Shown here in pieces: positions 1 to 46,591 of a DNA stretch of 64,000 nucleotides; positions within the stretch are counted from its first letter, which is position 1, and every line of letters begins with the position of its first letter. Source of the DNA: Thermus neutrinimicus (GTDB lineage Bacteria; Deinococcota; Deinococci; Deinococcales; Thermaceae); NCBI RefSeq assembly GCF_022760955.1, contig NZ_JAKTNU010000006.1:1-64000 (forward strand). Direction: 5' to 3'. The translations under genes were made by a program, and so were the position numbers. Under the pieces are notes generated by a model. The model had not been told where the DNA came from, did not search any database, and saw only the letters and a list, made by a program, of their open reading frames with translations.

Positions 1-706
1 GGAAGGCGCGGAAGTCCCTTGGGGTTATGCCCTATGGAGGTTTTGACGTGTACATAGCCTGGGGGGAAGCTACCTGAAAAACGGCAAGCTGGTCCTGAAC
101 TCCAAGGAGGCGGTGGAGGCCCTCACCCTTCTGCAAAACGGGGTGAAGGAGGGGTGGGCCAAGGCCATCACCTCCGGATACATCAACCAGAACCTGGGCT
201 CCGGCCCTTACGCCTTCAGCGTGGATACCTCCGCCGGCTACACCTACTACCGCCAGGGGGCCAAGTTTGACCTGGGGGTGGCCACCCTGCCGGGCCGCAC
301 CCCCGGGCAGCCGGGTTTCGGCCTGGTCCAGGGCACCAACCTGGTGGTCTTCCGCCAGGCCAGCAAGGAGGAGCAGGCGGTGGCCAAGGACTTCCTGCAG
401 TTTGTCCTTTCCCCCAGGGCCCAGGCGGTCTTTGCCACCGCCACCGGGTACGTGCCGGTCACCGAGGGAGCCCTTAAGGACGCGGTCTACCAGACCTACG
501 CCGCCGAGAACCCCGACTTCGCCACCATCGTGCGCCAAGGCCGTTACGCCAGGTTTGAGCCGGCCTTGGCGGAGTGGGAACAGATCCGTTTTGATATCCT
601 GGGCCAGGCCATCAAGGAGGCCATCTTGAACAAGGCGGATCCCAAGTCCGTCCTGGACAAGGCCCAGAAGCTGGCCGAGGATCTTTTGGCGGGGAAGACC
701 CGCTAG
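1..706 (+). CDS. ABC transporter sugar-binding protein, C-terminal part (5' end outside window; apparent frameshift)
   Basis: This is the C-terminal part of a periplasmic solute-binding protein of the UgpB/MalE type, which would deliver a sugar or glycerol-phosphate-like ligand to an ABC importer. Family-typical segments are GGSYLKNGK, a substrate-pocket stretch with YINQNLGSGPYAF, and LVQGTNLVVF. The frame open from about position 47 to 706 has a stop at 44-46. The sensible upstream sequence (YGGFDVYIAW) lies in the next frame. One extra G in the six-G run at 61-66 would join them as AWGGSYLKNGK, so a one-base deletion (real or a sequencing error) is likely. The gene ends at TAG 704-706 and is followed by a strong hairpin. 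The exact substrate cannot be told. Confidence 0.8.
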
Positions 707-718
707 CGGAGGCGGCTT

Positions 719-746
719 AACCCCTGGGGTCAAGGCCCCAGGGGTT
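719..746 (+). terminator. Hairpin terminator after the binding-protein gene
   Basis: A perfect 11-bp inverted repeat (AACCCCTGGGG, 719-729, and CCCCAGGGGTT, 736-746) with a 6-nt loop starts 12 nt after the stop codon. There is no long T tract, only AAACTTT. The right arm runs into the presumed -10 element of the next gene. Confidence 0.7.
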
Positions 747-750
747 AAAC
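745..750 (+). promoter_or_regulatory. Leaderless-type -10 element for the AOR gene
   Basis: TAAACT ends 7 nt before the ATG at 758 and there is no Shine-Dalgarno sequence in between, so the transcript probably starts at or next to the start codon. No clear -35 box is visible. Confidence 0.45.
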
Positions 751-757
751 TTTGCTT

Positions 758-2620
758 ATGCCCAAGGGCTATCACGACCGCGTGGCCTTCGTGGATCTCT
801 CCACGGGACGGACCTGGTATGAGAGCTACGGCGAGGCGTTTTGGAGGAAGTTCCTGGGGGGCAGGGCCCTTTCCGCTTACCTCCTCCTGAAGCACGTGCC
901 CCAGGGAAGAGACCCCCTGGGCCCGGAAAACGCCCTTATCTTTGCCCCCGGCATCCTCACGGGTACGCCCATCTCTGGCTCGGGCCGCAACACCGTGGCC
1001 GCCAAAAGCCCCCTCACCGGAGGGTACGGGGATGCGGAGGCCGGGGGGTTCTTCGGGGCCGAGATGAAGAACGCCGGCCTGGACGCCCTGGTGGTCCTGG
1101 GGCAGGCGGAGGAGCCCGTATACCTTCACCTCGAGGGGGGCCAGGTGGCCCTTTACCCGGCTTCCCACCTCTGGGGTAAGGACCCCTTGGAGGTGGAGAC
1201 CCTCCTCAAGGCGGCGCACGGGCCCAGCACCCGCGTGGCCCAGATCGGCATCGCCGGGGAAAACCGGGTTCTCACCGCCAACGTGATCCACGACCTGGCC
1301 CACTTCGCCGGGCGGGGGGGGCTGGGGGCGGTGATGGGGGCCAAGCGCCTGAAGGCGGTCTCCGCCCGGGCCAGGAAGGACACGCGTCCCGCTTACCACG
1401 ATCCCGCCCTCCTTTCCACCCTGGCCCGGCGCATGGCAGGGGAGCGCATGGAAAGGGCTGCAGGCCTGGTCACCATGGGCACCGTGGGCACGGTGAAGCC
1501 CTTCAACCTCCGGGGGGTTCTTCCCAGCCACAATTTTCTGGATGGTTTCCTGGAAGGGGCCGAGGCCTTGGACGGCACCAGCCTGGATGCCCTGGGCATC
1601 CGCATTGGCCGGGATACCTGTTACGCCTGCGCCATCCGCTGCAAGCAGGTGGTGCGGATTGAGGGCACCGGCAGGTACGACGTGCGCCCCGAGTACGGGG
1701 GGCCGGAGTACGAGGGGCTTGGGGCCTTGGGTTCCACCTGCGGGGTAACGGATCCCTATGCGGTCACCAAGGCCAACACCCTTTGCAACCAGTACGGCCT
1801 GGACGTGATCGGGGTGGGGGTGACCATAGCCTCGGCCATGGAGGCGGTGGAGAAGGGCTATCTGGACGACGAGGGCCTGGGGCTTCGCTTCGGCAACGGG
1901 GATGCCTTGATCGCCGCCATAGAGAAGCTGGCCCGCAAGGAGGGGCGGCTTGGGGAGCTCTTGGCCTTGGGGTCCAGGCGGTTTTCCGAGGCCATTGGGC
2001 ATCCGGAGCTGGCCATGCAGGTAAAGGGCCAGGAGGTGCCCATGCACGACCCCCGGTACAAGCGGGCCCTGGGGGTGGGGTATGCGGTGAGCCCCACGGG
2101 GGCCGACCACAACCACAACCTGCACGACACCGCCTTCGCCAAGGAGGGGAAGGCCCTAAAGGAGCTTCGCTTCTACGGGGAAGACTTCGCACCCCTCCCC
2201 CCGGAGGACCTTTCCGAGGCCAAGATCCGCATGCTCTGGACCAAGACCCGGGAGCGGGGCTTCGTGAATAGCCTGGTGCTGTGCGACTTCGTGCCCTGGA
2301 CCCCGGAGGAGTGGCAGGAGGCGGTCTACGCCACCACGGGGTGGCGGCTTTCCTCCCAGGAGATGCTGGAGGTGGGGGAGAGGACCTTGCAGCTCACCCG
2401 GCTTTTCAACCTGCGACACGGGATCGGCCCGGAGGAGGACCGCCTGCCTGAGCGGTTCTTCCAGCCCTTCCGGAAGGGCAACCCCGAGGCCCATCTGGAC
2501 CCCCATGCCTTCCGGGAGGGGGTGCGCACCTACTGGCGGCTTGCGGGGTGGGAGGAAGGGGGCGTGGATCCTGAAAGGCTAAGGGCCCTAGGGCTCGAGG
2601 AGTTTGCCGGGGCGGACTAG
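758..2620 (+). CDS. Aldehyde ferredoxin oxidoreductase family protein (tungsten-type)
   Basis: A 620-residue member of the AOR family, enzymes that hold a tungsten bis-pterin cofactor and one [4Fe-4S] cluster and oxidise aldehydes to acids with ferredoxin. The N-terminal pterin-binding domain starts with GKxxFVDL-like sequence and FLGGRALSAYLL. The cluster ligands are visible as C288-x2-C291-x3-C295 (DTCYACAIRC) plus C509 in LVLCDF; the first three fall at the residue numbers known for the Pyrococcus furiosus AOR. EYGGPEYE is a conserved cofactor-region motif. I chose ATG 758 rather than TTG 752 because of the -10 spacing. It overlaps the convergent DUF58 gene by 4 nt. A mobA homologue lies at 34.8 kb, but the natural substrate is unknown. 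Confidence 0.9.
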   Translation: MPKGYHDRVAFVDLSTGRTWYESYGEAFWRKFLGGRALSAYLLLKHVPQGRDPLGPENALIFAPGILTGTPISGSGRNTVAAKSPLTGGYGDAEAGGFFGAEMKNAGLDALVVLGQAEEPVYLHLEGGQVALYPASHLWGKDPLEVETLLKAAHGPSTRVAQIGIAGENRVLTANVIHDLAHFAGRGGLGAVMGAKRLKAVSARARKDTRPAYHDPALLSTLARRMAGERMERAAGLVTMGTVGTVKPFNLRGVLPSHNFLDGFLEGAEALDGTSLDALGIRIGRDTCYACAIRCKQVVRIEGTGRYDVRPEYGGPEYEGLGALGSTCGVTDPYAVTKANTLCNQYGLDVIGVGVTIASAMEAVEKGYLDDEGLGLRFGNGDALIAAIEKLARKEGRLGELLALGSRRFSEAIGHPELAMQVKGQEVPMHDPRYKRALGVGYAVSPTGADHNHNLHDTAFAKEGKALKELRFYGEDFAPLPPEDLSEAKIRMLWTKTRERGFVNSLVLCDFVPWTPEEWQEAVYATTGWRLSSQEMLEVGERTLQLTRLFNLRHGIGPEEDRLPERFFQPFRKGNPEAHLDPHAFREGVRTYWRLAGWEEGGVDPERLRALGLEEFAGAD

Positions 2621-3291
2621 AGGGGCTCCACCACCCCCTGCCGGAGGAGGGCGGGAAGGGGAGGCTCGCCCACCTTCAGGAGGGCGTAGTGTCCCCGGAG
2701 AAGGGCCAGGAGGCGCAGGGCTTTTAGGTGCTCCTCGAGGGCCTTTTGGTAGTCCTTCACCTCCTCCGGCCCCACGGGGAGGGATTCCCCGGTTTCCACA
2801 TCCCTGAGGAGGGCCGCCTCGAGGGGTGGGGACAGCTCCACGGGCGCCAGGACCTGGACCAGGACCACCCGCCTCGGAAGGACCCTGGGCCAAGGCAAAG
2901 GGTCTAGCCCGTCGGTGATGAGGACCAGGGTGCCCCGGCCCGGACGAAGGGCCTCCGGCCTGCCCCGTTCCAGCCGGGCCAGGGCGTCCTCCTGGCGGGC
3001 GATTCCTAAGAGGAGCCTCGCCACCTCCTCCCCATAGGCCAGCTTGCCGAAGAGGCGCATGCTTTCGCTTTCGTCCAGGTGGATGCGAAAGCGGCTTCGC
3101 TCGGGTGCGGTTTCCAGGCGGGTGTAGAGCCTTCCCGTCTTGGCGTAAGCCCGCCAGTGGACCCGCCTTACCTCGTCCCCAGGGGCATAGGGGCGGAGCT
3201 CATAAAACTCCCCCCCCAGGCCCTTCCTGCGGGCCAGCCGCTCCCCGGGGTAGGGAAAGTAGGGCTTGGTGGCGATGCGGTAGCGGGTCAT
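2617..3291 (-). CDS. Short DUF58 protein with VWA-like MIDAS motif
   Basis: A 224-residue DUF58 protein. The family core is seen in FYELRPYAPGDEVRRVHWRA, followed by a von Willebrand-A-like segment with the metal-site motif D-E-S-E-S. DUF58 proteins usually have N-terminal membrane helices and sit beside a MoxR ATPase. This copy has neither: it starts directly at MTRYRIATKPYFPYPG and is probably soluble. Its ATG overlaps the nrdJ stop (ATGA), so the two genes are translationally coupled. Its stop codon overlaps that of the convergent AOR gene in the tetramer CTAG. Function unknown. Confidence 0.85.
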   Translation of the reverse strand: MTRYRIATKPYFPYPGERLARRKGLGGEFYELRPYAPGDEVRRVHWRAYAKTGRLYTRLETAPERSRFRIHLDESESMRLFGKLAYGEEVARLLLGIARQEDALARLERGRPEALRPGRGTLVLITDGLDPLPWPRVLPRRVVLVQVLAPVELSPPLEAALLRDVETGESLPVGPEEVKDYQKALEEHLKALRLLALLRGHYALLKVGEPPLPALLRQGVVEPL

Positions 3292-5048
3292 GCCGTTTGG
3301 CAGAAGGTGCAGACCCCCACCGGGGGTAGGGGTTCGATGACCTCCTCCCGGCTTCCCTCCCGGAAGACGGTGAGGCCCTTGCACCCCTCCTTCCAGGCGG
3401 TGAGGAAGAGGTTTTCCACCACCTCCTTGGGGGTTTCCCGGGGGAGGTTCACCGTGGAGGAGATGCTTTGGTCCACATGGCGTTGCAAGATGGCCTGGAG
3501 GCGCACCCTCCCGAAAGGATCCACGGTGTGGGCCGTGGGCCAGTCCGGCACCTTGCCTCCCCGCTCCCTGCGGTACCGCTTCAAGAGGGGATGTTCAGCT
3601 AAGAACACCTGCCCCCCGGCGTGGCGCAGGTAGGTGAGGGCGAAGATGGGCTCTATCCCGCTTGTCACCCCAGCCAGGATGGAGATGGAACCGGTGGGGG
3701 CGATGGAAAGGAGGGCGGCGTTCCTCAGGCCCCTTTCCACCGCCTGGATGAGGGCTTCGGGTAGGGCCTGGATGAAGGGGCTTTTGAGGTGCTCCTTGGG
3801 GTCAAAGGCGGGGAAGGATCCTTTGTGCCTTGCCAGGCGGGTGCTCTCCCAGTAGGCGGCTTCCTTGATGCGGCGCATGGCCTCTTGCGCGAAGGCTAGG
3901 CTTTCCTCCGCCCCATAGGGCAGGCCCAGCATGGCCAGGGTGTCCGCCAGGCCCATGATCCCAAGGCCGATGCGCCGGCTTCTTAAGGAAGCCTCCCGCT
4001 GGGCCCTTAGGGGGTGGCGGTTTTTCCCCAGGTCCACCACCGCATCCAAAAACCGCACGGCTAGACGGGTGGCCTCCTCGAGGCCAGCCCAGTCCAGCCG
4101 GGCCCTTTCCCTGAAGGGTTCCTGCACGAAAGCGGCAAGGTTCAGGCTTCCCAGGTTGCAGGCCCCATAGGGTTCCATGGGCACCTCCCCGCAGACGTTG
4201 ACCCCCTCCACCTCCATCCCCCCGTACTGGGCCGTGGCCCAGGTGCGCACCCGATCCCAAAAGAGGAGGCCGGGTTCGGCGCTTTGCCAGGCAGCCTCCA
4301 CCAAAAGATCCCAAGCTTCCTTGGCCCGGATGGTGCGGGTTAGGCGCTCCCGGGGTGTGGTAAAGGAAAGCGTCCAGGGTTCGTCGGCCAAGGCGGCCTG
4401 TAAAAAGGCGTCCGTGGCCCTTAGGGAGATGTTGGCGTGGCGCACCCGGCTGCGCTCGGGGTCGGTTTTGGCCTGGAGGAACTCCAGGAGATCGGGATGC
4501 CGGTCGGAGAAGGTGAGCATCAAGGCTCCCCGCCGGCCTCCGCTGGCACCCATGACCCCCGCCAGGGTGGAGAAGAGCTCCATGAAGCTCACCGCCCCCG
4601 AGCTCTCCACGCCCGCGTTGCCCACCTTGGCCCCCTTGGGCCTTAGGACATCGGCGTTGGTGCCCACCCCGCCCCCGTAGGCGAAGGTGCGGGCGGCCTC
4701 GTCCAGGAAGCGGGTGATGCCCTTTACCGAGTCCTCCCGGATGGGGATGTAGTAGCAGTTAAAGAGGGTGGACCGGCGCCAGTTCCCCAGGCCAAAGAGG
4801 ATCCGTCCCCCGGGGACGAAGCGAAAGTCGGAGAAGAGCCAGGAGAACTCCCTTGTGGCGCCCTTTTCCGCTCGGGCGGCCTCCCGGACCAGCCGCCGCC
4901 ACATCTCCTCTGGGGTGGCTTCCAGGAGCCGGCCTTCCGTGTCCTTGAGGGCGTAGCGGTGGAGGAATACGGAGGCCCTGAGCTCATCGCCCTGGAAGAA
5001 ATCCAGGGCAAGCCTTAGGGCTTCTTCCTCGGCGTACCTGCGGGGCAC
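3288..5048 (-). CDS. nrdJ: Adenosylcobalamin-dependent (class II) ribonucleotide reductase
   Basis: A 586-residue B12-dependent ribonucleoside reductase, which makes deoxyribonucleotides without oxygen or a separate radical subunit. The thiyl-radical site is N284-V-C286-G-E288 (the N-x-C-x-E motif). The partner redox cysteines are C98 (LFNCYY) and C297 (CNLGSLNL), and the C-terminal CTFC pair (C580/C583) would re-reduce them. APTGSIS and the downstream GIEP motif are phosphate-site sequences. There is no N-terminal ATP cone, so this is the compact form. The start is GTG 5048. The gene follows glpX by 9 nt and overlaps the DUF58 start. Confidence 0.93.
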   Translation of the reverse strand: MPRRYAEEEALRLALDFFQGDELRASVFLHRYALKDTEGRLLEATPEEMWRRLVREAARAEKGATREFSWLFSDFRFVPGGRILFGLGNWRRSTLFNCYYIPIREDSVKGITRFLDEAARTFAYGGGVGTNADVLRPKGAKVGNAGVESSGAVSFMELFSTLAGVMGASGGRRGALMLTFSDRHPDLLEFLQAKTDPERSRVRHANISLRATDAFLQAALADEPWTLSFTTPRERLTRTIRAKEAWDLLVEAAWQSAEPGLLFWDRVRTWATAQYGGMEVEGVNVCGEVPMEPYGACNLGSLNLAAFVQEPFRERARLDWAGLEEATRLAVRFLDAVVDLGKNRHPLRAQREASLRSRRIGLGIMGLADTLAMLGLPYGAEESLAFAQEAMRRIKEAAYWESTRLARHKGSFPAFDPKEHLKSPFIQALPEALIQAVERGLRNAALLSIAPTGSISILAGVTSGIEPIFALTYLRHAGGQVFLAEHPLLKRYRRERGGKVPDWPTAHTVDPFGRVRLQAILQRHVDQSISSTVNLPRETPKEVVENLFLTAWKEGCKGLTVFREGSREEVIEPLPPVGVCTFCQTA

Positions 5049-34847: not shown

Positions 34848-35407
34848 GCATGTACTCGGGGGCGGTGATCGCTGGGGGGCTTTCCCGCAGGTTTGGGGAG
34901 GACAAGGCCCTTTACCCTTACCGGGGAAAGCCCCTCCTTAGATGGGTCTTGGATAGCCTCGAGGAGGCGGGGGAACGCTTCATCGTGGCCAACCGGCCCT
35001 ACCCTGGCTTCGGCGTGCCCGTGTACCCTGATCTGCTCCCAGGGGCGGATAGCCTTTCGGGTCTCCACTCCGCCCTCTTCCACGCCCGCCATTCCTGGGT
35101 GGCGGTGGCGGCCACGGACCTGCCCTTCCTGACCCCAGGGTACTGGGCCTTTCTCTTTGAAAAGGCCTTGGCCTCCCCTTACCCGGTGGTGGTGGCCTAT
35201 AACCCGGAAGGCCACCTCGAGCCCCTCATGGCCCTCTACCATAAGGACTGCCTTCCCCAGGTGGAACGGCAGATCCGGGAAGGGGATTTCCTCCTGAGGC
35301 GGGTGATGGAGGCCTTGGGCGCCACCTATATCCCCGCGGAGGAGGTGGTGGCCCGCTTCGGTGCCCAGGTCTTCCTCAACGCCAACCGCAAGGAAGAGCT
35401 TCCCTAG
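34841..35407 (+). CDS. mobA: Molybdenum cofactor guanylyltransferase MobA
   Basis: A 188-residue nucleotidyltransferase that attaches GMP to molybdopterin. The signature is VIAGGLSRRFGEDKALYPY, and the metal-binding Asp lies in AAATDLPFLTP. ATG 34841 overlaps the previous gene; ATG 34850 is an equally plausible start just after that stop and would begin MYSGAVIAGG. The stop overlaps that of the convergent usher-like gene in CTAG. Its cofactor product could serve molybdenum enzymes elsewhere in the genome. Confidence 0.9.
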   Translation: MVGMYSGAVIAGGLSRRFGEDKALYPYRGKPLLRWVLDSLEEAGERFIVANRPYPGFGVPVYPDLLPGADSLSGLHSALFHARHSWVAVAATDLPFLTPGYWAFLFEKALASPYPVVVAYNPEGHLEPLMALYHKDCLPQVERQIREGDFLLRRVMEALGATYIPAEEVVARFGAQVFLNANRKEELP

Positions 35408-38262
35408 TCCCGCACCCGGATGCGGGCGGAGTGGACCCGGTTCCCGTCCAGGTAGAGCTCCAGCTCGTAGGCGCCTGGGGTTTTGGGGGCCAGGAGGGTG
35501 CCCCGGTAGGTGAACTCGTCCACCCGCTCCAGGGGCAGGACCATGGGGCCAAGCCGCACCTCTACCCGGCTTGCCCTGCGGTGGAGGCGGGCCTCGAGGT
35601 GCACCTCCTCCCCGGGGTCCAGGAGGGCTGGGGTGGCCTGCAGGGTGGCCAAGGGGCCGGGCCGCACGGTGAGGAGAGCGGAGGCCTCGCTCCGTTCCCC
35701 TCGGCCCTCGGCCACCACCTTGACTTCTAAGGTACCCTGTCCCTCCACGGGGAGGTAACCCCCAAAGATCCCCTCTCCCTTGGGCTCCAGGGGCAGGCTA
35801 CGGCCTCCCAGCTCGGCCCAGACCCGCTCCGGGCTCCCTTGGACCTGGGCCTCGAGGGCGAGTTCAGCCCCTGGGGGCAGGACCGAGGGCAGGGGTTTCA
35901 AGACCACCGCCAGGGTCTCCTCGGTAAGGGTGCGCACAATCTCCCGCACCACGGGCCGGGCAAAAAGGAGGACCTGGGGCAGGGGGCCGGGAGAGAGGGT
36001 GAGGGACACGGGTTCGCCGGGCTCCTGGAGCCTGTCCAGGCTGGTTGGCTCCAGGCTCAGGCTGTAGTTTCCCGGAAGGAGCCCTCCCACCACAAAGACC
36101 CCGCGCCCATCGGTGAGGGCGGTGCGGGCCTCCAGGCCTTGGATGCGGACGCGGACATAGGGCAGGGGAGGCTCCCCCTCATCCCTTATCCCGTTACGGT
36201 TTTCGTCCAAGAAAACCTGGCCCATCAGGCCCACCACGGTTTCCACCGGGAGGTCCAGGGGCAGGGACACGCCCCGCTCCACCCGGGCTTCCAGCCGGCG
36301 GCGCAGGGCCAGGTTGGCCTCGAGGCCCCCCACCTCTAGGCGGTAGGTTCCCGGGTAGAGCTCCAGGCGGTAGCGGCCTTCGGCATCCGCCACCACCTCC
36401 AAGGCCCCCACCCGCACCTTGGCTCCGGGAAGGGGGGGGTCGTCCGGACCTTTTACCCCATCCCGGTTCCGGTCGTGGAAGACCACCCCTTCCACATACC
36501 CCGTGGCCCGGCCGCCGAAGGCCTGGACCACCTCCTCAGGGGTATCGAAACCCCCTTTGACCTCCAAGGTTCCCAAGGCGGCGAGCTGGAGGACCCCGGA
36601 GGCGTACCGACCCTCGAGGCCCAGGCCCCAGACCCCTTCCCGGTAGGCGAGGCCAAAACGGGCCTCCAGCCGGTTCTGTCCCCAGTCGTAGCCCAAGGCC
36701 GCGCTCCCTTCCAGGGGAGGGAAGGACCCTTGGGCGGCCAACTGAAGGCGCCGGGTGTCGGTGGCCGTGTAGCCCACCTGCAGGCCAAAGTCTCGCTCCC
36801 GGTAGCCGGCGTAAAGGGCCAGGTAAGGACCCTGAGGGTTGCGGCCGAGGCTTCCGCCAACCTCCAGTCCACCTTCCCGGAACCGGGCGGCCAGGCCCAG
36901 GACCAGCCCCCCCTGGGCCCCCACCGAGCCGCTTAGGGAGAGGGGTCCTCCCAGGGGGCGGTAGGCCAGGGTGTAAAGGAGGCCGTAGGTATTGGCCAGC
37001 CGGAAGGTGAGGCTTTGGGTGAAGGCTTCGTCAACGCGGTGGCTCAGGCTGGCGCTTCCCTGGAGGCTACCGGTCTCGTAGGCCACCTCGCCCTTAAACC
37101 CCAGGGGATCCTGGCTACGGGTGGCCCCTCCTAGGCGGAACCTGAGGCCTTCCAGGTACTCGAGCCTTCCCGTGAGGCTGAGCTCGCGGTTTTCCAGTTT
37201 CCCCTCGAGGCCCACCCCTGCCTGCACCGCCTCGGGGTCGGCCCGCCGGCGCACCACCCCGTAGGGAACCAGGGTGAGCCCGCCTTCCTGGAAGGCATAG
37301 CCCACGCTAAAGCGCTGGCCCAGCCCGCTCAGATGGGTGGCCAGGCGCCAGGGTCCCTCCTGGTATAGACCCCCAAGGCTAAGCCCTCCTCCTGCCCAAG
37401 CGGCGTAGCCCTGTAGGGGGCCCCAGGAGGCTTCCAGGCGGTAGACCCCTGGATAGGCCCGTAGGCCCAAGGCGAAATCCTCCCCGTAGAAGACGGCCTC
37501 GCCGGCAAGGCCCTCCGCCCTCAGGTTCAGGCCGGTGGACAGGCGCACATAGTCGGAGAGGGCACCTCCTAGGGAGAGGCCCAGAGCGTATCCCCAGCCT
37601 CCTGACCCGTACCTGGCGGTTAGGCCGAACCGGTAAAGGAGGGCCTGCCGGGAGAGGGACTCGGCCCCGGCAAAGGGCCGGATGACGGTTTCCACCACCC
37701 CGTAGGCCCGCACCTTGGGGTCCAGGCCGGAGTAGGCGAAGACCGTGGCCGTGTCGCGATTGCGTCCGGTGAGGCGCAGTTCCAAGGCAACCTCCTTAGC
37801 TTCCCCGGGGTCCAGCTCCAGGACCTCTTGGGAAAGCCGGTAGGGAAGGAGGCTTCGCACCTCGAGGCGCACCTTATCCCTGGCGTTTCCTGCATTGCGC
37901 ACGCTGAGGGCATACCGAAGGCTTTCCCCTTCCACCCCTTCCATCCCTGGGGGAACCTTCAGCTCCACGCTGGCCCGCACGGGGATGCGCACCCGCACCG
38001 TGCGGGTTTCCCGGGCATCCCTAAGGACCAGGAGGTGTTCCCCGGCCAAGGCCTCGGGCCCCACCAAGAAGTTCAGGACCCCTTCCCCCTCGACCTCCTG
38101 GGAAAGGGGGACGAGCCCCTTGGGCACCTCCACCGCCGCCACGGTTCCTTCCCCCCGTATGGGCACGCTGAGGAAGCCTCCCGGCTGGGCCTCCAAGGTC
38201 TCGGGGGCCTCGAGGGCCAGCCCTAAGGCCAGGAAAAAGGGGAGAAGGACCAGGCCCCGCAT
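35404..38262 (-). CDS. Usher-like outer-membrane protein with SdrD-B-like domains
   Basis: A 952-residue exported protein, probably the outer-membrane platform of the appendage system. Order: signal peptide (1-17); a NEW3-like beta-sandwich at about 90-190 (LRYALSVRNAGNARDKVRLE); a long run of alternating amphipathic strands at about 210-600 (for example LGYRERDFGLQVGYT-like segments), read as a large beta-barrel; two SdrD-B/carboxypeptidase-regulatory-like domains with acidic Ca-type loops (DRNRDGVKGPDD, DENRNGIRDEGE); then Ig-like domains to the end. This is not a textbook PF00577 usher, so the usher role is inferred from position after a PapD-like chaperone and subunits. A repeat-rich adhesin is the main alternative. 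Confidence 0.7.
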   Translation of the reverse strand: MRGLVLLPFFLALGLALEAPETLEAQPGGFLSVPIRGEGTVAAVEVPKGLVPLSQEVEGEGVLNFLVGPEALAGEHLLVLRDARETRTVRVRIPVRASVELKVPPGMEGVEGESLRYALSVRNAGNARDKVRLEVRSLLPYRLSQEVLELDPGEAKEVALELRLTGRNRDTATVFAYSGLDPKVRAYGVVETVIRPFAGAESLSRQALLYRFGLTARYGSGGWGYALGLSLGGALSDYVRLSTGLNLRAEGLAGEAVFYGEDFALGLRAYPGVYRLEASWGPLQGYAAWAGGGLSLGGLYQEGPWRLATHLSGLGQRFSVGYAFQEGGLTLVPYGVVRRRADPEAVQAGVGLEGKLENRELSLTGRLEYLEGLRFRLGGATRSQDPLGFKGEVAYETGSLQGSASLSHRVDEAFTQSLTFRLANTYGLLYTLAYRPLGGPLSLSGSVGAQGGLVLGLAARFREGGLEVGGSLGRNPQGPYLALYAGYRERDFGLQVGYTATDTRRLQLAAQGSFPPLEGSAALGYDWGQNRLEARFGLAYREGVWGLGLEGRYASGVLQLAALGTLEVKGGFDTPEEVVQAFGGRATGYVEGVVFHDRNRDGVKGPDDPPLPGAKVRVGALEVVADAEGRYRLELYPGTYRLEVGGLEANLALRRRLEARVERGVSLPLDLPVETVVGLMGQVFLDENRNGIRDEGEPPLPYVRVRIQGLEARTALTDGRGVFVVGGLLPGNYSLSLEPTSLDRLQEPGEPVSLTLSPGPLPQVLLFARPVVREIVRTLTEETLAVVLKPLPSVLPPGAELALEAQVQGSPERVWAELGGRSLPLEPKGEGIFGGYLPVEGQGTLEVKVVAEGRGERSEASALLTVRPGPLATLQATPALLDPGEEVHLEARLHRRASRVEVRLGPMVLPLERVDEFTYRGTLLAPKTPGAYELELYLDGNRVHSARIRVRD

Positions 38263-38265
38263 GGC

Positions 38266-38736
38266 CTAAAGCCGGCTTAGGGTGAAGAGGAGGCTTCCCC
38301 GGTAGACCCCGGGTACCTCCTGCCCCGTGAGCACCAGTCGGAACTCCAGAACGTAGCTTTGGTACCCGGCCGTGGGCCCGCTTCCCGTGAGCAGGATGAT
38401 CTTGGGACCCAAGGGGATCCAAGGACCCCCGTTCAGGCGGTACTCCACCTGGCTAGAGGGGATCTGGACTCCGCCTTCAGCGAGAAGAGGGGTTGCCTCC
38501 ACCTCCACGGCAAAACCCCCCTCGAGGTTGGTGAAGAGCCTAAGGGTTAAGGGTCCTGGGGGGGCGGTGGGGGCGTAGGCGTAGGGGAAGCTGGGCGGGG
38601 GAAAAGGGCTTTGCGTGAGGTCAAAGACCACTTCCTCGGCGCTCAGGGAGAGGCTGGTGCCCTCCGGCAGGTTGACCCCGATGGGCACCTGGGCCAGGGC
38701 CAAGGCCAGAAGGGGGAACAGGGCCAGGAATCGCAT
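38266..38736 (-). CDS. Fimbrial-subunit-like secreted protein (minor subunit candidate)
   Basis: A 156-residue exported beta-protein: signal peptide (MRFLALFPLLALALAQ), N-terminal LPEGTSLSLSAEEVVFDL that resembles the mature N-termini of the three upstream subunits, and the C-terminal strand VPGVYRGSLLFTLSRL, which matches the G-x-Y-x6-F-T-L pattern shared by all four. Such an end is typical of spore-coat-U/DUF4402-type pilins. ATG 38736 overlaps the chaperone stop by one base (TGATG). It sits between chaperone and usher-like genes, where tip or minor subunits are often found. Confidence 0.7.
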   Translation of the reverse strand: MRFLALFPLLALALAQVPIGVNLPEGTSLSLSAEEVVFDLTQSPFPPPSFPYAYAPTAPPGPLTLRLFTNLEGGFAVEVEATPLLAEGGVQIPSSQVEYRLNGGPWIPLGPKIILLTGSGPTAGYQSYVLEFRLVLTGQEVPGVYRGSLLFTLSRL

Positions 38737-39518
38737 CACCTCACCTCGATCCGTCCTTCCCCGGCGATGAGGTTGGGGCTTCCGTAGTCCAGGACCGCCA
38801 ACACCAGGTAGCGCCCCGCCGGGAGGGGTTTGTCCAAGGGAGCGGGGAGCTCGTGGGTGGCCCCAGGAAGGCTGGCGGTTTCCGGAACCTCCCCCTGGGC
38901 TAAGGGCCGACCCTGGGGGTCCCGCACCTCCACCCGGCCCTTTAGGCGAAGGAGGCCGGTGCCCGTGTTCTGGAAGACCAGGCGCACCTGGGCGGGGGCC
39001 TCGCGGCTTGGCGGCAGGTAGCGGAAGCCCTGGATGCGCCCCGAACGGCTCACCTGCCCCACCTCCACGTAAACCACGTGTCCCACCCGGGTCTTGACCC
39101 GGATGCCCAGCCCCTCCCCACCCTGGCGGCTTCCCGCCGGGGCCGACTCGAAGAAGATGATGCCCCAGTAGGTGCCTGCCTGGATTCCCTGGGGCACCTG
39201 CACCGTGTAGCGCACCTCCTGGCTGGCCTGGGGCTGGAGGAGGAAGGCCAAGGGACTTACGGAAAGCCAGCGGCTCAAGGAGCGGGGGTGGGCTCCTGGG
39301 TCCAGGTAAAGGGGTCTGCCATCCGCCTGGAGGAGAACATCCTGCAACACCACCTCCACCTGCAGGGTGCCGCTCCGCCCCGGATGGTCCACCAGGATGC
39401 TCCCCGTGAGGCTGGTTCCTGGGGTGGCGGGGTAGAGGGCCCTAGGGGGGCTTACCCCTACTCCGGTTTGGGCTTGGGCCGCACCCAAGAGGATCAGAAG
39501 GGGAAGGAGTTTTCTCAT
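38736..39518 (-). CDS. PapD-like periplasmic pilus chaperone (candidate)
   Basis: A 260-residue exported protein with a two-domain Ig layout. After the signal peptide (LLPLLILLGAAQAQ) comes VGVSPPRALYPATPGTSLTG, then a second strand set with LLQPQASQEVRYTVQVP and IQAGTYWGIIFFES, the arrangement of fimbrial chaperone N-domains. A second beta-domain starts near residue 150. Family-level similarity is judged by eye. Its place between the subunit genes and the usher-like gene supports the role of capturing subunits in the periplasm. Confidence 0.7.
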   Translation of the reverse strand: MRKLLPLLILLGAAQAQTGVGVSPPRALYPATPGTSLTGSILVDHPGRSGTLQVEVVLQDVLLQADGRPLYLDPGAHPRSLSRWLSVSPLAFLLQPQASQEVRYTVQVPQGIQAGTYWGIIFFESAPAGSRQGGEGLGIRVKTRVGHVVYVEVGQVSRSGRIQGFRYLPPSREAPAQVRLVFQNTGTGLLRLKGRVEVRDPQGRPLAQGEVPETASLPGATHELPAPLDKPLPAGRYLVLAVLDYGSPNLIAGEGRIEVR

Positions 39519-39533
39519 GTCACCATTCTAGGG

Positions 39534-39564
39534 AAAAAGGGGCTACCCCCAGGAAGCCTGGGGG
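39534..39564 (-). terminator. Intra-operon terminator/attenuator between subunit and assembly genes
   Basis: On the minus strand a hairpin with an 8-bp perfect core (39546-39553 pairing with 39557-39564, loop 3 nt) is followed 7 nt later by TTTTT (39538-39534). It begins 12 nt after the stop of the third subunit gene and ends before the chaperone start at 39518, so partial termination would lower chaperone/usher output relative to subunits. Confidence 0.65.
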
Positions 39565-39576
39565 CAGCCCTGGGGC

Positions 39577-40254
39577 CTAGAGGGCCGCAAGCTGGAAGAG
39601 GAAGTTGAACTGGTAGGTGCCCGCCTCCTCGGAGCCATCAAACCAGAAGGCCTCGATGATCTCGTCGTCCAGCCAGCCGGGAAGGCGCTGGCCCAAGACC
39701 TTGAGGAGTTCCAGGGGGGTGCCGTCGTCCACCCCGTTGAACTGGACGAACTTGGTGTGGTTAATGTCAGGAGCGTTATCCACCACCCCGCCCTGGCCGT
39801 AGTCGGGCCCGCCCTGGGTCCGGGTCACCTTGAGGTCCAGCTCGCACCCATCCCCGTTGTTGCAGAACTTCTGGAGCACCTTCTGGTTAAGGCAGATGAT
39901 GGTGCCCTTCTCGCCCTCGTCGATCTGGCCATTGCCGTTCAGGTCCTTGATGGCGGGGTAGGTGTCGATGGGCTGGAAGTTGCCGGCCAAGGCATCGTTG
40001 ATGGCGTCTTCCAGGCTGCCTTGGTAGCCCTTGGGCACCAGGTAGCACCCTTCGCCGTTTTGCCCGGGAACGGGGTTATTGAGGTCCACGACCCATTCGT
40101 CCTCCGTGAGGTGCAGGGCCACCCGCTGGGGGATGGTGAGGTTGATGCGCTCGGTGACGGTGGCCTCCTGGTCGCCCACGTTCCACTCCTCGCCACCGTT
40201 GGCCAAGGCCAGGGCCAAGAGCCCGCTAAGCGCTAAAAGGACAAGCTTCCGCAT
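39577..40254 (-). CDS. Fimbrial-subunit-like secreted protein with EF-hand loop, subunit C
   Basis: A 225-residue exported protein, paralogous to the product of the gene just upstream. Signal peptide (1-19), then IPQRVALHLTEDEW near residue 41, a conserved cysteine pair (C70 in GEGCYLVPK, C121 in TIICLNQKVLQKF), and a canonical 12-residue EF-hand loop (D104, N106, N108, E115). The C-terminus is GTYQFNFLFQLAAL, the shared subunit end. It probably polymerises or decorates a calcium-stabilised fibre. It follows the upstream subunit by 12 nt. Confidence 0.75.
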   Translation of the reverse strand: MRKLVLLALSGLLALALANGGEEWNVGDQEATVTERINLTIPQRVALHLTEDEWVVDLNNPVPGQNGEGCYLVPKGYQGSLEDAINDALAGNFQPIDTYPAIKDLNGNGQIDEGEKGTIICLNQKVLQKFCNNGDGCELDLKVTRTQGGPDYGQGGVVDNAPDINHTKFVQFNGVDDGTPLELLKVLGQRLPGWLDDEIIEAFWFDGSEEAGTYQFNFLFQLAAL

Positions 40255-40266
40255 GGCCTACCTCCT

Positions 40267-41004
40267 TTAGAGACCCGCCAGGGTGAAGGTCACGTCGATG
40301 GTGTAGGTGCCGTCCAGCTCCGAGCCGTCAAACCAGAAGCCCTCCACGATCAGGTCGTCCAGCCAGCCGCCCGTGGGGCCAGTGCCCTGGGCCACCATCA
40401 CGGGTCCATAGGGCAGGCTGTTGGTGGCAAAGCCGCCCATGGGCACCTGGTTGATGAGATCCGCCAGGCCGAAGTAGCCAAAGCCGCTGGCGGGAGTCCC
40501 GGTCACGGAAACGCTCAGCTGCCAACCATCGGGGTCGTTGGAGAACTTCTGCAGGATTTTGTGGTTCACGCAGATGAGGGTCCCCTTTTCCTCGTCGGAA
40601 AGCTTCCCGTCCCCGTCATAGTCCTTGGCCGCCGGGTAGGCGCCGATGGGGCGGAAGATGCCACCCTGTAGGGCGTAGTTGATGAGGTCGTTCGGGGTCC
40701 TCACCGCCTTGGGGACCAGGTAGCATCCCTCCTCAGGGGGTTGGGGATTATTGGGATCGAAGACATAAGGGGAGGGAGCCTCAGGGGGGTTATTGAGATC
40801 CAGGTTCCACTCGTCCTCGGTGAGGTGCAGGGCGTAGCGCGGGGGGATGATGACCTTCACCTTCTCCTTCACCGCCGCCTGGTCGTGGTTATCGTCCCAA
40901 AGCTCTTCCACGTTCCCGTCCAGGTCGCCTTCCGAGGGGAAGTTCACTTGGGCGTAGCCCACCGCCAGGGCCAGGGCCAGTGCCGCGATCATCCACTTCT
41001 TCAT
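40267..41004 (-). CDS. Fimbrial-subunit-like secreted protein with EF-hand loop, subunit B
   Basis: A 245-residue exported protein with signal peptide (MKKWMIAALALALAVGYAQ), then IPPRYALHLTEDEWNLDLNN near residue 53, cysteines C94 (EEGCYLVPK) and C145 (LICVNHKILQKF), and a canonical EF-hand loop at D128, D130, D132 and E139. The C-terminal strand is DGTYTIDVTFTLAGL. The close relation to the downstream product indicates tandem duplication. GGAGG lies just before the ATG, so strong translation is expected. Confidence 0.75.
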   Translation of the reverse strand: MKKWMIAALALALAVGYAQVNFPSEGDLDGNVEELWDDNHDQAAVKEKVKVIIPPRYALHLTEDEWNLDLNNPPEAPSPYVFDPNNPQPPEEGCYLVPKAVRTPNDLINYALQGGIFRPIGAYPAAKDYDGDGKLSDEEKGTLICVNHKILQKFSNDPDGWQLSVSVTGTPASGFGYFGLADLINQVPMGGFATNSLPYGPVMVAQGTGPTGGWLDDLIVEGFWFDGSELDGTYTIDVTFTLAGL

Positions 41005-41056
41005 GGTTACCTCCTTTACTGCCGAAAGAACCTAAAAGCCTTGTGCCGAAAGCCTC

Positions 41057-41857
41057 CTAGAGAAGCGTGAGGGTGTAGACCAACCAACCCTCGTACTCCC
41101 CTGGCGTTTCGGAACCGTCCAGCCGGAGCTTGATCCCCAGGGTGACCGACTGCCAGCCCCCGGGATGGTCGGTGACCTCCTCCAGGAGTACCCCCCCATC
41201 GGGCCCCGAGGGAGCCGGGCAGATGTGGGAGGGCGGGCGGTCCCAGTCCGGGTGGTAGGCCAGGCACTTCCAGTGAGGGGTGGGGGGAAGGCCGCCCCTC
41301 CCGGTGAGGATGGAGTGCATGGCGAAATGGCTGGCGTCCAGGACCCTACCATCCGGGCTGATGGGTTCGGTCTCAAAGGCCACGGAAAGGGCCCAGTGCC
41401 GCCTTTGGGTGAAGACGTGAAGCCGCATGGAGGGGTGGGTGAAGTACTGGGGAAAGCGCTTGGATCCGGGGATCACCCGACCGTCCCCGTCCAGGAGGAG
41501 GGGAGGGTATGGGCGTCCATCCTCGTCCAAAAAGCGTCCATCCCCGCCGTAAAGGTCTACGCAATGGGCAGGCACAGGGCCTAGGGTGGCGCACCGAAGG
41601 TCAAAGACCACCACCGGATCCCGCAGGCAGAGGGTGGGGTCGCTGGGGTCCCGGGGACAATATGGGGGTTGGCTGGGGTTTCCCCCACCTCCCCTGCTGG
41701 CCCACAGGGGACCCGCCACCTTGCCCCCCACCGCCGGGGGTTCCAACACCAGGGCCGCGCGTTCCGGAATCCTGACTTCCAGCCGCACGGAGGCTTGGGG
41801 ACCTGCTGCCCCCAGGATTAAGGGCAGGATCAGCCACGACCAAAGCCCAAGCCTCAC
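41057..41857 (-). CDS. Fimbrial-subunit-like secreted protein, subunit A (first gene of operon)
   Basis: A 266-residue exported protein. Signal peptide (LGLWSWLILPLILGAAG), then VRIPERAALVLEPP, which parallels the mature N-termini of subunits B and C. A Gly/Pro/Cys-rich middle follows, with acidic turns (YGGDGRFLDEDG), and the chain ends in TPGEYEGWLVYTLTLL. I chose GTG 41857, placed 7 nt after GGAGG; the open frame to 41899 would overlap the promoter. It heads the six-gene operon and follows the 11-bp repeat promoter. Confidence 0.72.
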   Translation of the reverse strand: MRLGLWSWLILPLILGAAGPQASVRLEVRIPERAALVLEPPAVGGKVAGPLWASRGGGGNPSQPPYCPRDPSDPTLCLRDPVVVFDLRCATLGPVPAHCVDLYGGDGRFLDEDGRPYPPLLLDGDGRVIPGSKRFPQYFTHPSMRLHVFTQRRHWALSVAFETEPISPDGRVLDASHFAMHSILTGRGGLPPTPHWKCLAYHPDWDRPPSHICPAPSGPDGGVLLEEVTDHPGGWQSVTLGIKLRLDGSETPGEYEGWLVYTLTLL

Positions 41858-41883
41858 CGTCCCACCTCCTTTCGCCCCAGAGG

Positions 41884-41916
41884 GTAGATAAGGGGGCATT
41901 AAGGGAACGTTAAGGG
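41884..41916 (-). promoter_or_regulatory. Subunit-operon promoter with three 11-bp tandem repeats
   Basis: Read on the minus strand, CCCTTA recurs three times at exactly 11-bp steps (starting at 41916, 41905 and 41894). The third copy contains TTATCT/TATCTA, a likely -10 box, and the first two lie where a -35 box is missing. This is the geometry of SARP/OmpR-family activator sites. The start codon GTG 41857 is about 30 nt downstream with a ribosome site. Confidence 0.7.
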
Positions 41917-41981
41917 AGGATGTGCTTTTCTGACGTGGGTATGGTTTTGAGGCGTTAAGCTGGAGGCAGAGGGTAGGGAGG

Positions 41982-42013
41982 CTCTTAACGGTTTCTTAAC
42001 GATGGGGTTAACG
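41982..42013 (+). promoter_or_regulatory. TTAACG repeats upstream of the regulator gene
   Basis: Three TTAACG copies on the plus strand start at 41985, 41996 and 42008 (steps of 11 and 12 bp), ending 12 nt before ATG 42025. A lone minus-oriented copy (41953-41959) lies between the two arrays. The arrangement suggests autoregulation. Confidence 0.6.
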
Positions 42014-42024
42014 GGGTGGGAGGG

Positions 42025-43706
42025 ATGAAGGTGCGGTTGCCCCTATACGGTCCTGCCCGGGCGGAAGGGCCCTTGGGTCCCCTTTCCCTACGCCGGAAGG
42101 CCTTGGGAATCCTCTACTACCTGGCCCTCGAGGGCCCCACCCGAAGGGAAAAGCTGGCGGACCTCCTTTGGGGCCATGGGGCTGCCCTGCAGAACCTGCG
42201 GGTGGAGCTCACCCACCTCCGCCAGCTTTTCGGAAAGGAGGCCTTTCGAGGCTCGGTCCTGGAGCTGCCCCCAGGGGTAGCCCTGGACCGCACGCCCGCG
42301 GGGGAGGAGGTGCTGGAGGGCCTCGAGGACCTTTCCCCTGCCTTTACCGACTGGGTGCAGATGCAGCGGGCCCGCCTTGGGGTGCCCCAGGAAGGCCTGC
42401 CCCTTCCCGAGAGGCTTACGGAGATACGCCCCCCTGCCTTGGTGGGCCTCATCGGTCCCCCGGGTTCAGGGCAGGCTGCCTTGGCGCGGAAGCTGGCGGA
42501 AACCCTGGGCCTCCCCTTCCGAGAGGGGCTTGGCCAAGGCCCAGGGGTCTTTTACCTGGCCGACCCCCTGCCGTCCCTAGACGAGGCCCTCAGGCTCCGC
42601 CCTCAGCCGGGGCAGGTCTTGGTGGTGGCCAGGAGCCGTTTCGGGGAGGACCCGGCCTTTCTCCTGGCCCTGAGGGCCCGCTTTCCCGCGGAGATCACCC
42701 GGGTTCTCCCCGTGCCCCGTCTGGGGTTTGCCGAGGCCCGAAACCTTTTCCTGCGCCATCTCCCCTTTAGGGAGGCAGCCCGCTATTACCTGGAAAGCGG
42801 GGGCCGGCCCGGGGTACTCCGAGAGCTTCTGGCCATGGGGGATTCCCAGGCCTTGCCCCAAAGGGTGCGGGCCATGGTGGCCCTCGAGGCCCGCCATCTT
42901 CCCCAACCTGCAAGGCAGGCCCTGGAGGTGCTGGCCCTTCACCCAGGAACTTTCCCAAGCGCCCTGGCCGAGGCTTTGGGGTTTGGGGGGTATTTGGGGG
43001 AGCTGGAGCGCAGGGGTTGGCTTCACTTCCTTGAAGGCCGTTACGGGTTCACCGAGCCCCAGTTCCGCCGGTACCTTTGCGCTTCCATCTCCCAGGGGGA
43101 AAGGGTCCGCCTTCACCTCCAGCTGGCCCAAGCCTTTCGGGAGCTTGGGGATTTGGTGGCTGAGGCCTTTCACCTAAGCCGTGCTGGGGAGCCCGTGGAG
43201 CCGAGGGCCTTGCTACGGGGCTTGAGGGAGTGGCGACGGGTGAGCGCGGATCCCCAGTTCCCCTGGTCGGAATTCCCCCCGCCCAACGTGCTCCTGGGCT
43301 TGGGTCCCTCGGTGCCTTTGGAGGCTCCGGAGGTGTTCTCCCTGGTCTCCCTGGGCGGGGAGCCCGTGGAGGTGCCCCTGGTGCTACCTGAGCCTATGGT
43401 GGTCAGGTTGGAGGGACAGGTGTACCAGGAACTGCCTCTGGGCCTCGGCCCCGATGCCATGTCCTTTCCCTTGCGCCTTCTAGGGGAGGAACGGAGCCTT
43501 TACTTCCTCCCCACCCCCTCGGGGAGTAGCCTCTTTTGGGGGACGGTCCTTCCGGAAAACCCCTTGGACTACCTTCTTCTTATGCTCCCCGGTGTGTACC
43601 GCTTAGGGCTTGGGGTGCGGGGGCTGGCGGAGTTGAAGCTCAGGGCCTACCGGCCCGCACCGGGGACCTTGCGGGTGCTGGCCCCCTTGGGCCAGACCGT
43701 GGAGGT

Positions 43707-43710
<4 letters not shown>
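42025..43710 (+). CDS. SARP/BTAD-type transcriptional regulator with degenerate NTPase domain
   Basis: A 561-residue regulator. Residues 1-70 form an OmpR-like winged helix as in SARP proteins (LRRKALGILYYLALEGPTRR, EKLADLLWGHGAALQNLRVE). A P-loop-like sequence starts at G144 (GPPGSGQAA), but the Walker lysine is Q150, so nucleotide binding is doubtful. A STAND-like helical middle follows, then a beta-rich C-terminal domain from about residue 415 that I cannot assign and that may sense a signal. It is divergent from the fimbrial operon and convergent with lon (4-nt overlap). The direct-repeat sites next to it are its probable targets. Confidence 0.82.
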
Positions 43711-46174: not shown

Positions 46175-46591
46175 CTAGAGGCCCACGGTTACGAGGGCCT
46201 TGGGGTTCTTGAGGGTGAAGTTTACCGGGCCGGAGGGCAGGCCCTGGACCTCGAGGCCCAGCCAGAACCCGCCTTGGGCGATGCCTTGGGTGAGGTTTTC
46301 CCCTTGGAGGGTAAGGGGTGCGCTTGGGCTCCATTGAAACCGGGCTTCCCCGGCTCTTTCGTCGTCGGGTCCTATGCCGCACGCATAGGCTTGGATGCCG
46401 TAGGAGGATAAGTCCGTGCATCCAGGGTCGGTGGCGGGGTCCTTAATGGGGTACAGGATCTTCCCTTGGGTGTTGGGCAAAGCTGCGACGCTGAAGCTCC
46501 GCTCCGGAAGGTCCACGGTAACCGCAAAGGAGCAGGCGGTGAGAAAAAGGCCCAGCAACGCCCCATAGCCCAGGCGAAAGGGTCCTCGCAT
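46175..46591 (-). CDS. Small lipoprotein, function unknown
   Basis: A 138-residue exported protein with a lipobox (LFLTAC, cysteine near residue 20), so it should be lipid-anchored. The mature part is beta-rich, with two further cysteines (PGCTDL, AYACGIG) and the ending PKALVTVGL. No family is recognised. TATACC (46599-46604, minus) is at leaderless spacing from ATG 46591. It is divergent from pyrD and has its own terminator. Confidence 0.72.
   Translation of the reverse strand: MRGPFRLGYGALLGLFLTACSFAVTVDLPERSFSVAALPNTQGKILYPIKDPATDPGCTDLSSYGIQAYACGIGPDDERAGEARFQWSPSAPLTLQGENLTQGIAQGGFWLGLEVQGLPSGPVNFTLKNPKALVTVGL

Follow-up and report, generated by a model that had tools for sequence, protein, structure and literature searches.

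What do six adjoining Thermus genes that encode nothing but exported proteins do together? The genes lie codirectionally on the minus strand, from 41899/41857 to 35404, of the stretch of Thermus neutrinimicus DNA that we analysed (64,000 nucleotides, positions 1 to 64,000 of contig NZ_JAKTNU010000006.1; hereafter the window), and are spaced, in operon order, by 52, 12, 58, -4/-1 and 3 bases (Table 1). The original prediction placed a chaperone-usher-like surface appendage operon here, and all six reading frames are found as predicted, each product beginning with a signal-peptide-like segment as judged by a crude hydrophobicity test. When the proteins are scanned singly with Pfam and NCBIfam models, SdrD_B/CarboxypepD_reg is the sole match; the Pfam PapD, usher and SCPU models find nothing among the six. 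A search of the open-access literature found no publication that describes the system in either Thermus or Deinococcus. We argue below that the operon probably specifies a chaperone-usher-like system for assembling a surface fibre.

Table 1. Features of the operon and its flanks, with positions in the window.
Feature	Position	Strand	Remark
266-residue exported subunit-like protein	41057..41857	-	Alternative start at 41899 gives 280 residues
245-residue exported large subunit, EF-hand-type loop DYDGDGKLSDEE, two Cys	40267..41004	-	
225-residue exported large subunit, EF-hand-type loop DLNGNGQIDEGE, four Cys	39577..40254	-	
14-bp GC-rich hairpin followed by TTTTT, in the gap between subunit genes and chaperone gene	39540..39570	-	
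260-residue tandem-Ig periplasmic chaperone-like protein, PapD/WxLIP superfamily	38736..39518	-	Profile and fold
156-residue small exported subunit-like protein	38266..38736	-	Alternative start GTG at 38739
952-residue predicted outer-membrane protein	35404..38262	-	AlphaFold2 model and Pfam
559-residue divergent regulator-like ORF	42031..43710	+	SARP-like N-terminus, P-loop ATPase-like region
Divergent intergenic region, expected site of the operon promoter	41858..42030	.	
Molybdenum-cofactor-like nucleotidyltransferase ORF flanking the operon	ends 35407	+	Named from sequence

Is this gene set a unit? Comparison among genomes shows the anatomy of the operon. The chaperone-like protein and the 952-residue protein are each present in 35 of the 61 genomes of the order, the two sets of genomes largely coincide, and the two genes are no more than a few kilobases apart. 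Genes were called in forty loci. The locus type of the window, subtype A, occurs in 9 Thermus genomes. Subtype B has one subunit of about 277 residues, the chaperone, a small subunit of about 162 residues and a barrel protein of about 1037 residues; subtype C has a subunit of about 200 residues, the chaperone, another subunit of about 200 residues and a barrel protein of about 800 residues; and in subtype D the barrel gene is convergent. The window's own genome carries a second copy, of type B (L074, G000:C1:226000-241000), which is followed by two more exported proteins of 388 and 143 residues, the latter lipoprotein-like, with no Pfam match. A subtype E arrangement is seen at 1-4055 of locus L101 (genome G017), with a chaperone, a 778-residue barrel-type protein and two subunits that both end in GAYQVVITYTLMAQ. 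The operon has decayed in two Thermus genomes. In one (L084 4487-6981, genome G010) just the 3' end of the barrel gene persists beside an intact regulator gene, and in the other (L085 5984-7293, genome G019) fragments of a type A operon, including the barrel-gene end, are kept in the same place. These remnants indicate that the operon is dispensable, and its genes appear to be lost together.

Beyond the order, the chaperone profile finds matches in 76 of the 111 genomes of the phylum, about 56 of them strong (E below 1e-20) and the remainder short or weak. Four Deinococcus loci (L147-L150), all on large plasmids, contain counterparts of four of the genes in unchanged order, so that the succession subunit, chaperone, small subunit, barrel is conserved from Thermus to Deinococcus. 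The profile matches there have E-values of at most 1e-99 for the barrel protein, 3e-53 for the chaperone and 2e-8 for the small subunit, and of 2.7e-27 to 2.5e-66 for the counterparts of the large subunits, found with the large-subunit profile. Of these 16 Deinococcus proteins 15 are annotated as hypothetical, and one barrel protein is annotated for a carboxypeptidase-like regulatory domain.

What kind of protein is encoded at 39518, where a PapD-like chaperone had been predicted? Sequence profiles and a predicted fold together show the 260-residue protein to be a member of the PapD/WxLIP superfamily, and the prediction is borne out. In HHalign, 21 family members were set against a profile built from ten chaperones of E. 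coli K-12 plus one of archaic type; the match has a probability of 95.0% (E 3.5e-8, score 61) and, when realigned, covers both domains. None of 40 column-shuffled decoys scores above 18, and the reversed profile scores 16. The family profile also retrieves, at E 7.9e-7, the archaic PapD-type chaperone of a fragmented genome in the phylum bin (G045, discussed below). Pfam PapD_N is matched by neither the 260-residue protein nor its family. Searched against PDB sequences, the family profile ranks a ciliary PapD-like protein top, the WxL-interacting protein (WxLIP) of Enterococcus faecium as the best bacterial match (E 3e-5), and EcpB at E 0.42.

The predicted fold was taken from the T. arciformis orthologue (L073), where the subunit and chaperone genes share a reading frame and are separated by a single TAG. 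With this codon read as Q, a modelling device, subunit and chaperone were modelled as one chain (mean pLDDT 86, pTM 0.61), of which only the chaperone part is really tested. Its nearest solved structure is again the E. faecium WxLIP (9i1y/9i25, Z 16.3/15.9; Foldseek E 5.5e-10; VIA-align Z 16.3, rmsd 6.3, 230 residues aligned), a relative that had no place in the original interpretation. The pilus chaperones come next, within a Z range of 11.5-13.6: YadV (Z 13.6), Caf1M, FimC, CsuC (Z 12.7) and PapD (Z about 11.6). The WxLIP and PapD folds are close, so that a WxLIP match is compatible with a chaperone role. The best reading is that this protein, related to both PapD chaperones and WxLIP, bridges the two systems.

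What would such a chaperone serve? Four of the proteins in the operon, those of 266, 245, 225 and 156 residues, have the C-terminus G-x-Y-x5-[FY]-[TQ]-L-x2-L. The shared terminal motif of the original prediction is thus present in all four subunit candidates, but with a spacing of x5; the x6 form as predicted yields no match. Among the 615 ends of window ORFs of at least 60 residues, the x5 motif is found at exactly these four, and in 0 of 200,000 shuffled tails. The subunits also have an N-terminal segment in which hydrophobic residues visibly alternate (VxVxVP...). The kinship with spore-coat-U/DUF4402 pilins was not borne out, since no pilin family, SCPU and DUF4402 included, is matched by the subunits. 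Matches of the subunit profile to Ecotin and PilA were rejected as due to signal peptide or composition, and so was a profile match between the subunits and E. coli pilins, which was confined to the signal peptide.

The individual subunits differ in character. The 266-residue protein, whose orthologue is present in 9 of 9 type-A loci, has six conserved Cys and ends in GEYEGWLVYTLTLL; it is possibly a tip subunit or adhesin. The 225- and 245-residue proteins each contain a canonical 12-residue EF-hand-type Ca2+ loop, the pattern being kept in 9 of 9 loci for each. The predicted EF-hand subunits therefore stand as regards the loops, but the Pfam EF-hand model is not significant on the operon proteins (E 0.52). 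The gene for the 156-residue small subunit invariably sits between the chaperone and barrel genes.

Between the gene for the 225-residue subunit and that for the chaperone lie 58 bases, which include a 14-bp GC-rich hairpin with a run of five T after it (dG -36.9, z -3.8). Is this a chance structure? A stem of at least 9 bp is found in all 32 subunit-chaperone gaps, and one of at least 11 bp in 29 of the 32, versus 15 of 67 other codirectional gaps; strong hairpins are visible in the corresponding gaps of the Deinococcus loci as well. Across the nine type-A gaps 95% of cells keep the stem, three pairs have changed on both sides, and sliding the partner, as a control, cuts stem pairing to 45-69%. 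A hairpin after the major-subunit gene has been described in fimbrial operons, and with one here the operon has the anatomy of a fimbrial operon; such a hairpin supports, but does not define, a chaperone-usher pathway. The position of the hairpin points to the subunits upstream of it as the abundant ones; the 225-residue protein, whose gene is the last subunit gene before it, is the presumed abundant subunit.

Is the 952-residue protein an usher? An AlphaFold2 model built from 34 sequences (mean pLDDT 85, pTM 0.46, a low value that leaves the placement of the domains uncertain) predicts two Ig domains at about 22-195, a barrel at 209-567, a short helix, an SdrD_B/CarboxypepD_reg segment at 588-737 and two further Ig domains at about 785-950. 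The predicted barrel has 28 strands of at least 8 residues, joined by loops of about 6 residues or less, with a strand pLDDT of mostly 85-94; from the even number of strands, both barrel ends would face the periplasm. The SdrD_B/CarboxypepD_reg match is significant (Pfam E 1.9e-13), and there are two such domains. The expected barrel and SdrD-B domain are therefore both in place, the barrel as a large predicted one, and one of the outcomes that would have spoken against the original prediction, a model with no barrel, did not occur. The identification as an usher fares worse: the predicted barrel has 28 strands instead of 24, the model shows no plug domain inserted between the strands, and there is no usher-type N-terminal domain, the model having two all-beta Ig domains there and PapC_N giving no match. 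Profile comparison of the N-terminus with usher N-termini gives no match either. The two N-terminal Ig domains could do the chaperone-binding job of the usher N-terminal domain.

Comparison of the barrel itself is uninformative as to kind. Foldseek lists FimD and PapC among the best barrel matches of the model, and in VIA-align TonB-dependent receptors, MtrB and ushers all score Z 14-17; with equal Z for all three, the similarity is generic and speaks for a large barrel only. HHalign of the N-terminal, barrel and C-terminal parts does not separate ushers from FhuA, LptD and FecA. Compared as a whole with the usher profile, the 952-residue profile gets no further than 10% (E 0.003), and the scores of single ushers resemble those of FhuA, FecA and LptD. 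In this full-profile alignment the final barrel strands and the C-terminal domains correspond in approximately the same order, a hint of relationship that is suggestive at most. The usher model PF00577 is unmatched in the window and in the 111 genomes, an absence that we discount because the same model misses a control archaic usher (the 735-residue usher-like protein of locus L109) and EcpC. The C-terminal domain of EcpC overlaps CarboxypepD_reg, and for this reason the SdrD_B-like domains of the 952-residue protein may be counterparts of the usher C-terminal domains.

How then does the system compare with the known ones? With the classical, alternative and archaic chaperone-usher systems (Fim/Pap, Ecp/CFA, Csu) it shares a tandem-Ig chaperone homologous to PapD, a predicted outer-membrane barrel flanked on either side by periplasmic domains, several exported subunits that have a C-terminal strand in common, and the gene order subunits, hairpin, chaperone, barrel. 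It differs from them in the plugless barrel already described, in the C-terminal part of the barrel protein, with its two SdrD_B/CarboxypepD_reg domains and its Ig domains, in the small subunit encoded between chaperone and barrel, and in having EF-hand-type loops, a SARP-like regulator and no SCPU or pilin match. With the WxL/WxLIP (DUF916-DUF3324) clusters of Firmicutes it shares the tandem-Ig partner that is closest by fold and profile, partner proteins that end in a terminal strand of the YTL type, and a tandem-Ig partner that is predicted to complete its client's sandwich; it differs in the diderm host with its outer-membrane barrel and in lacking a transmembrane anchor on the tandem-Ig protein and a WxL motif match.

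The most likely reading is that the system works like a chaperone-usher pathway. All six proteins would be exported by Sec, as their signal peptides suggest. In the periplasm the 260-residue chaperone would bind each subunit and supply what its incomplete Ig-type fold lacks, probably with a strand from the chaperone's own edge. For WxLIP, a study of 2023 (PMC10599100) predicts that the WxL sandwich is completed by a strand which WxLIP inserts, so that both nearest relatives of the chaperone point to one mechanism. Subunits would then be passed to the 952-residue protein. Its wide 28-strand barrel is a candidate export pore, and the Ig and SdrD_B domains before and after the barrel, in the periplasm, may replace the usher N-terminal domain, plug and C-terminal domains. 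Outside, polymerisation by donor-strand exchange would follow if the N-terminal extension (VxVxVP...) of one subunit enters the groove of its neighbour, and a fibre would result. The conserved hairpin would allow more subunit than assembly protein to be made, and in hot springs the subunits may gain stiffness from Ca2+ in their EF-type loops.

Could the operon be a surface complex that makes no fibre? One might picture a diderm version of the WxL/WxLIP complex, in which the tandem-Ig protein fixes the subunits to the envelope (peptidoglycan or S-layer) and the barrel is an anchor. According to PMC10599100, WxLIP binds WxL on peptidoglycan; it is the closest solved structure by profile (E 3e-5) and by fold (Z 16.3), and its Pfam model WxLIP_PGBD (DUF916) is weakly matched by 6 of 21 chaperone family members (best E 9e-4, below the curated cut-off). 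We regard this picture as unlikely, however: the C-terminal transmembrane helix of WxLIP is lacking in the 260-residue protein, which in sequence and model has none and ends in a beta strand, the Pfam WxL domain is absent from 22 subunits at E 0.1, and an outer-membrane barrel and a subunit-biased hairpin are features of fimbrial systems. A transporter in the outer membrane with accessory Ig proteins and no appendage would account for barrel alignments to TonB-dependent receptors and MtrB that are as good as those to ushers, but TonB box and plug are absent, and there are four subunit-like proteins with common ends and the hairpin and gene order of a fimbrial operon; we give this idea very little credence.

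It might be thought instead that the operon is a true archaic chaperone-usher system, with an usher and pilins that divergence has made unrecognisable. The homology of the chaperone is genuine, by HHalign and by the profile match to an archaic chaperone; the misses of PF00577 on the L109 control usher and on EcpC make a missing usher match weak evidence; and EcpC resembles the 952-residue protein in its CarboxypepD_reg overlap. Against this, the barrel model has 28 strands and neither plug nor usher-type N-terminal domain, and HHalign of the barrel protein to ushers is no better than that to control barrels. We consider such a descent quite improbable. The phylum bin offers an archaic operon for comparison: PapD_N and SCPU, searched over the 111 genomes, are absent except in the fragmented genome G045, which at L109 805-4191 encodes a PapD_N chaperone, the usher-like protein and an SCPU subunit. 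Its chaperone is the one found by the Thermus profile, but with its PapD_N and SCPU matches, its 735-residue usher-like protein and no SdrD_B, that archaic operon differs from the present one. The belief that archaic chaperone-usher systems occur in the phylum thus has one genome in its favour, but at a different locus, and the genes could be contamination in this fragmented order-level genome. The failure of PF00577 on the usher-like protein of L109 shows that this model underreports archaic-type ushers.

Because the model lacks both a 24-strand barrel with plug and an usher-type N-terminal domain, we do not file the system as a member of the chaperone-usher family. We tentatively entertain, as a possible classification, a separate class of Deinococcota fibre-assembly systems, with a WxLIP/PapD-type chaperone that would load pilin-like subunits onto a plugless 28-strand outer-membrane barrel, a class that would preserve an evolutionary link between the WxL/WxLIP complexes of Gram-positives and chaperone-usher pili. 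The gene set of Thermus and Deinococcus looks like an undescribed fibre-building kit. If this is true, roughly half of the examined Deinococcota genomes carry an unrecognised fibre-assembly system. The chaperone would link the PapD pili of diderms and the WxL complexes of monoderms, which have been thought separate, and a common origin becomes testable. Thermus, a genetically tractable model known for its type IV pili, would own a second kind of surface filament. A plugless barrel of 28 strands in a single chain would exceed the usher in size. How would it be kept closed?

What controls the operon? Homologues of the divergent 559-residue ORF adjoin the type B loci and three of the four Deinococcus loci (E 5.6e-26 to 3.8e-19). 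The N-terminus of this ORF presumably resembles a SARP-type winged helix, and the SARP label is based on this N-terminal pattern and on homology to the Deinococcus neighbours; Pfam matches on the ORF are not significant, and neither they nor BLAST to a Deinococcus BTAD protein confirmed SARP. From its synteny, the SARP-like regulator may control the operon. No sigma-70-like consensus was found in the divergent intergenic region. Three of the Deinococcus loci adjoin a SARP-like regulator of 735-748 residues. Farther out in the window, beyond a lon-like gene, lies a 138-residue lipoprotein-like ORF (46175-46591, minus strand), which is a neighbour of the lon-like gene in one other Thermus (L084) as well.
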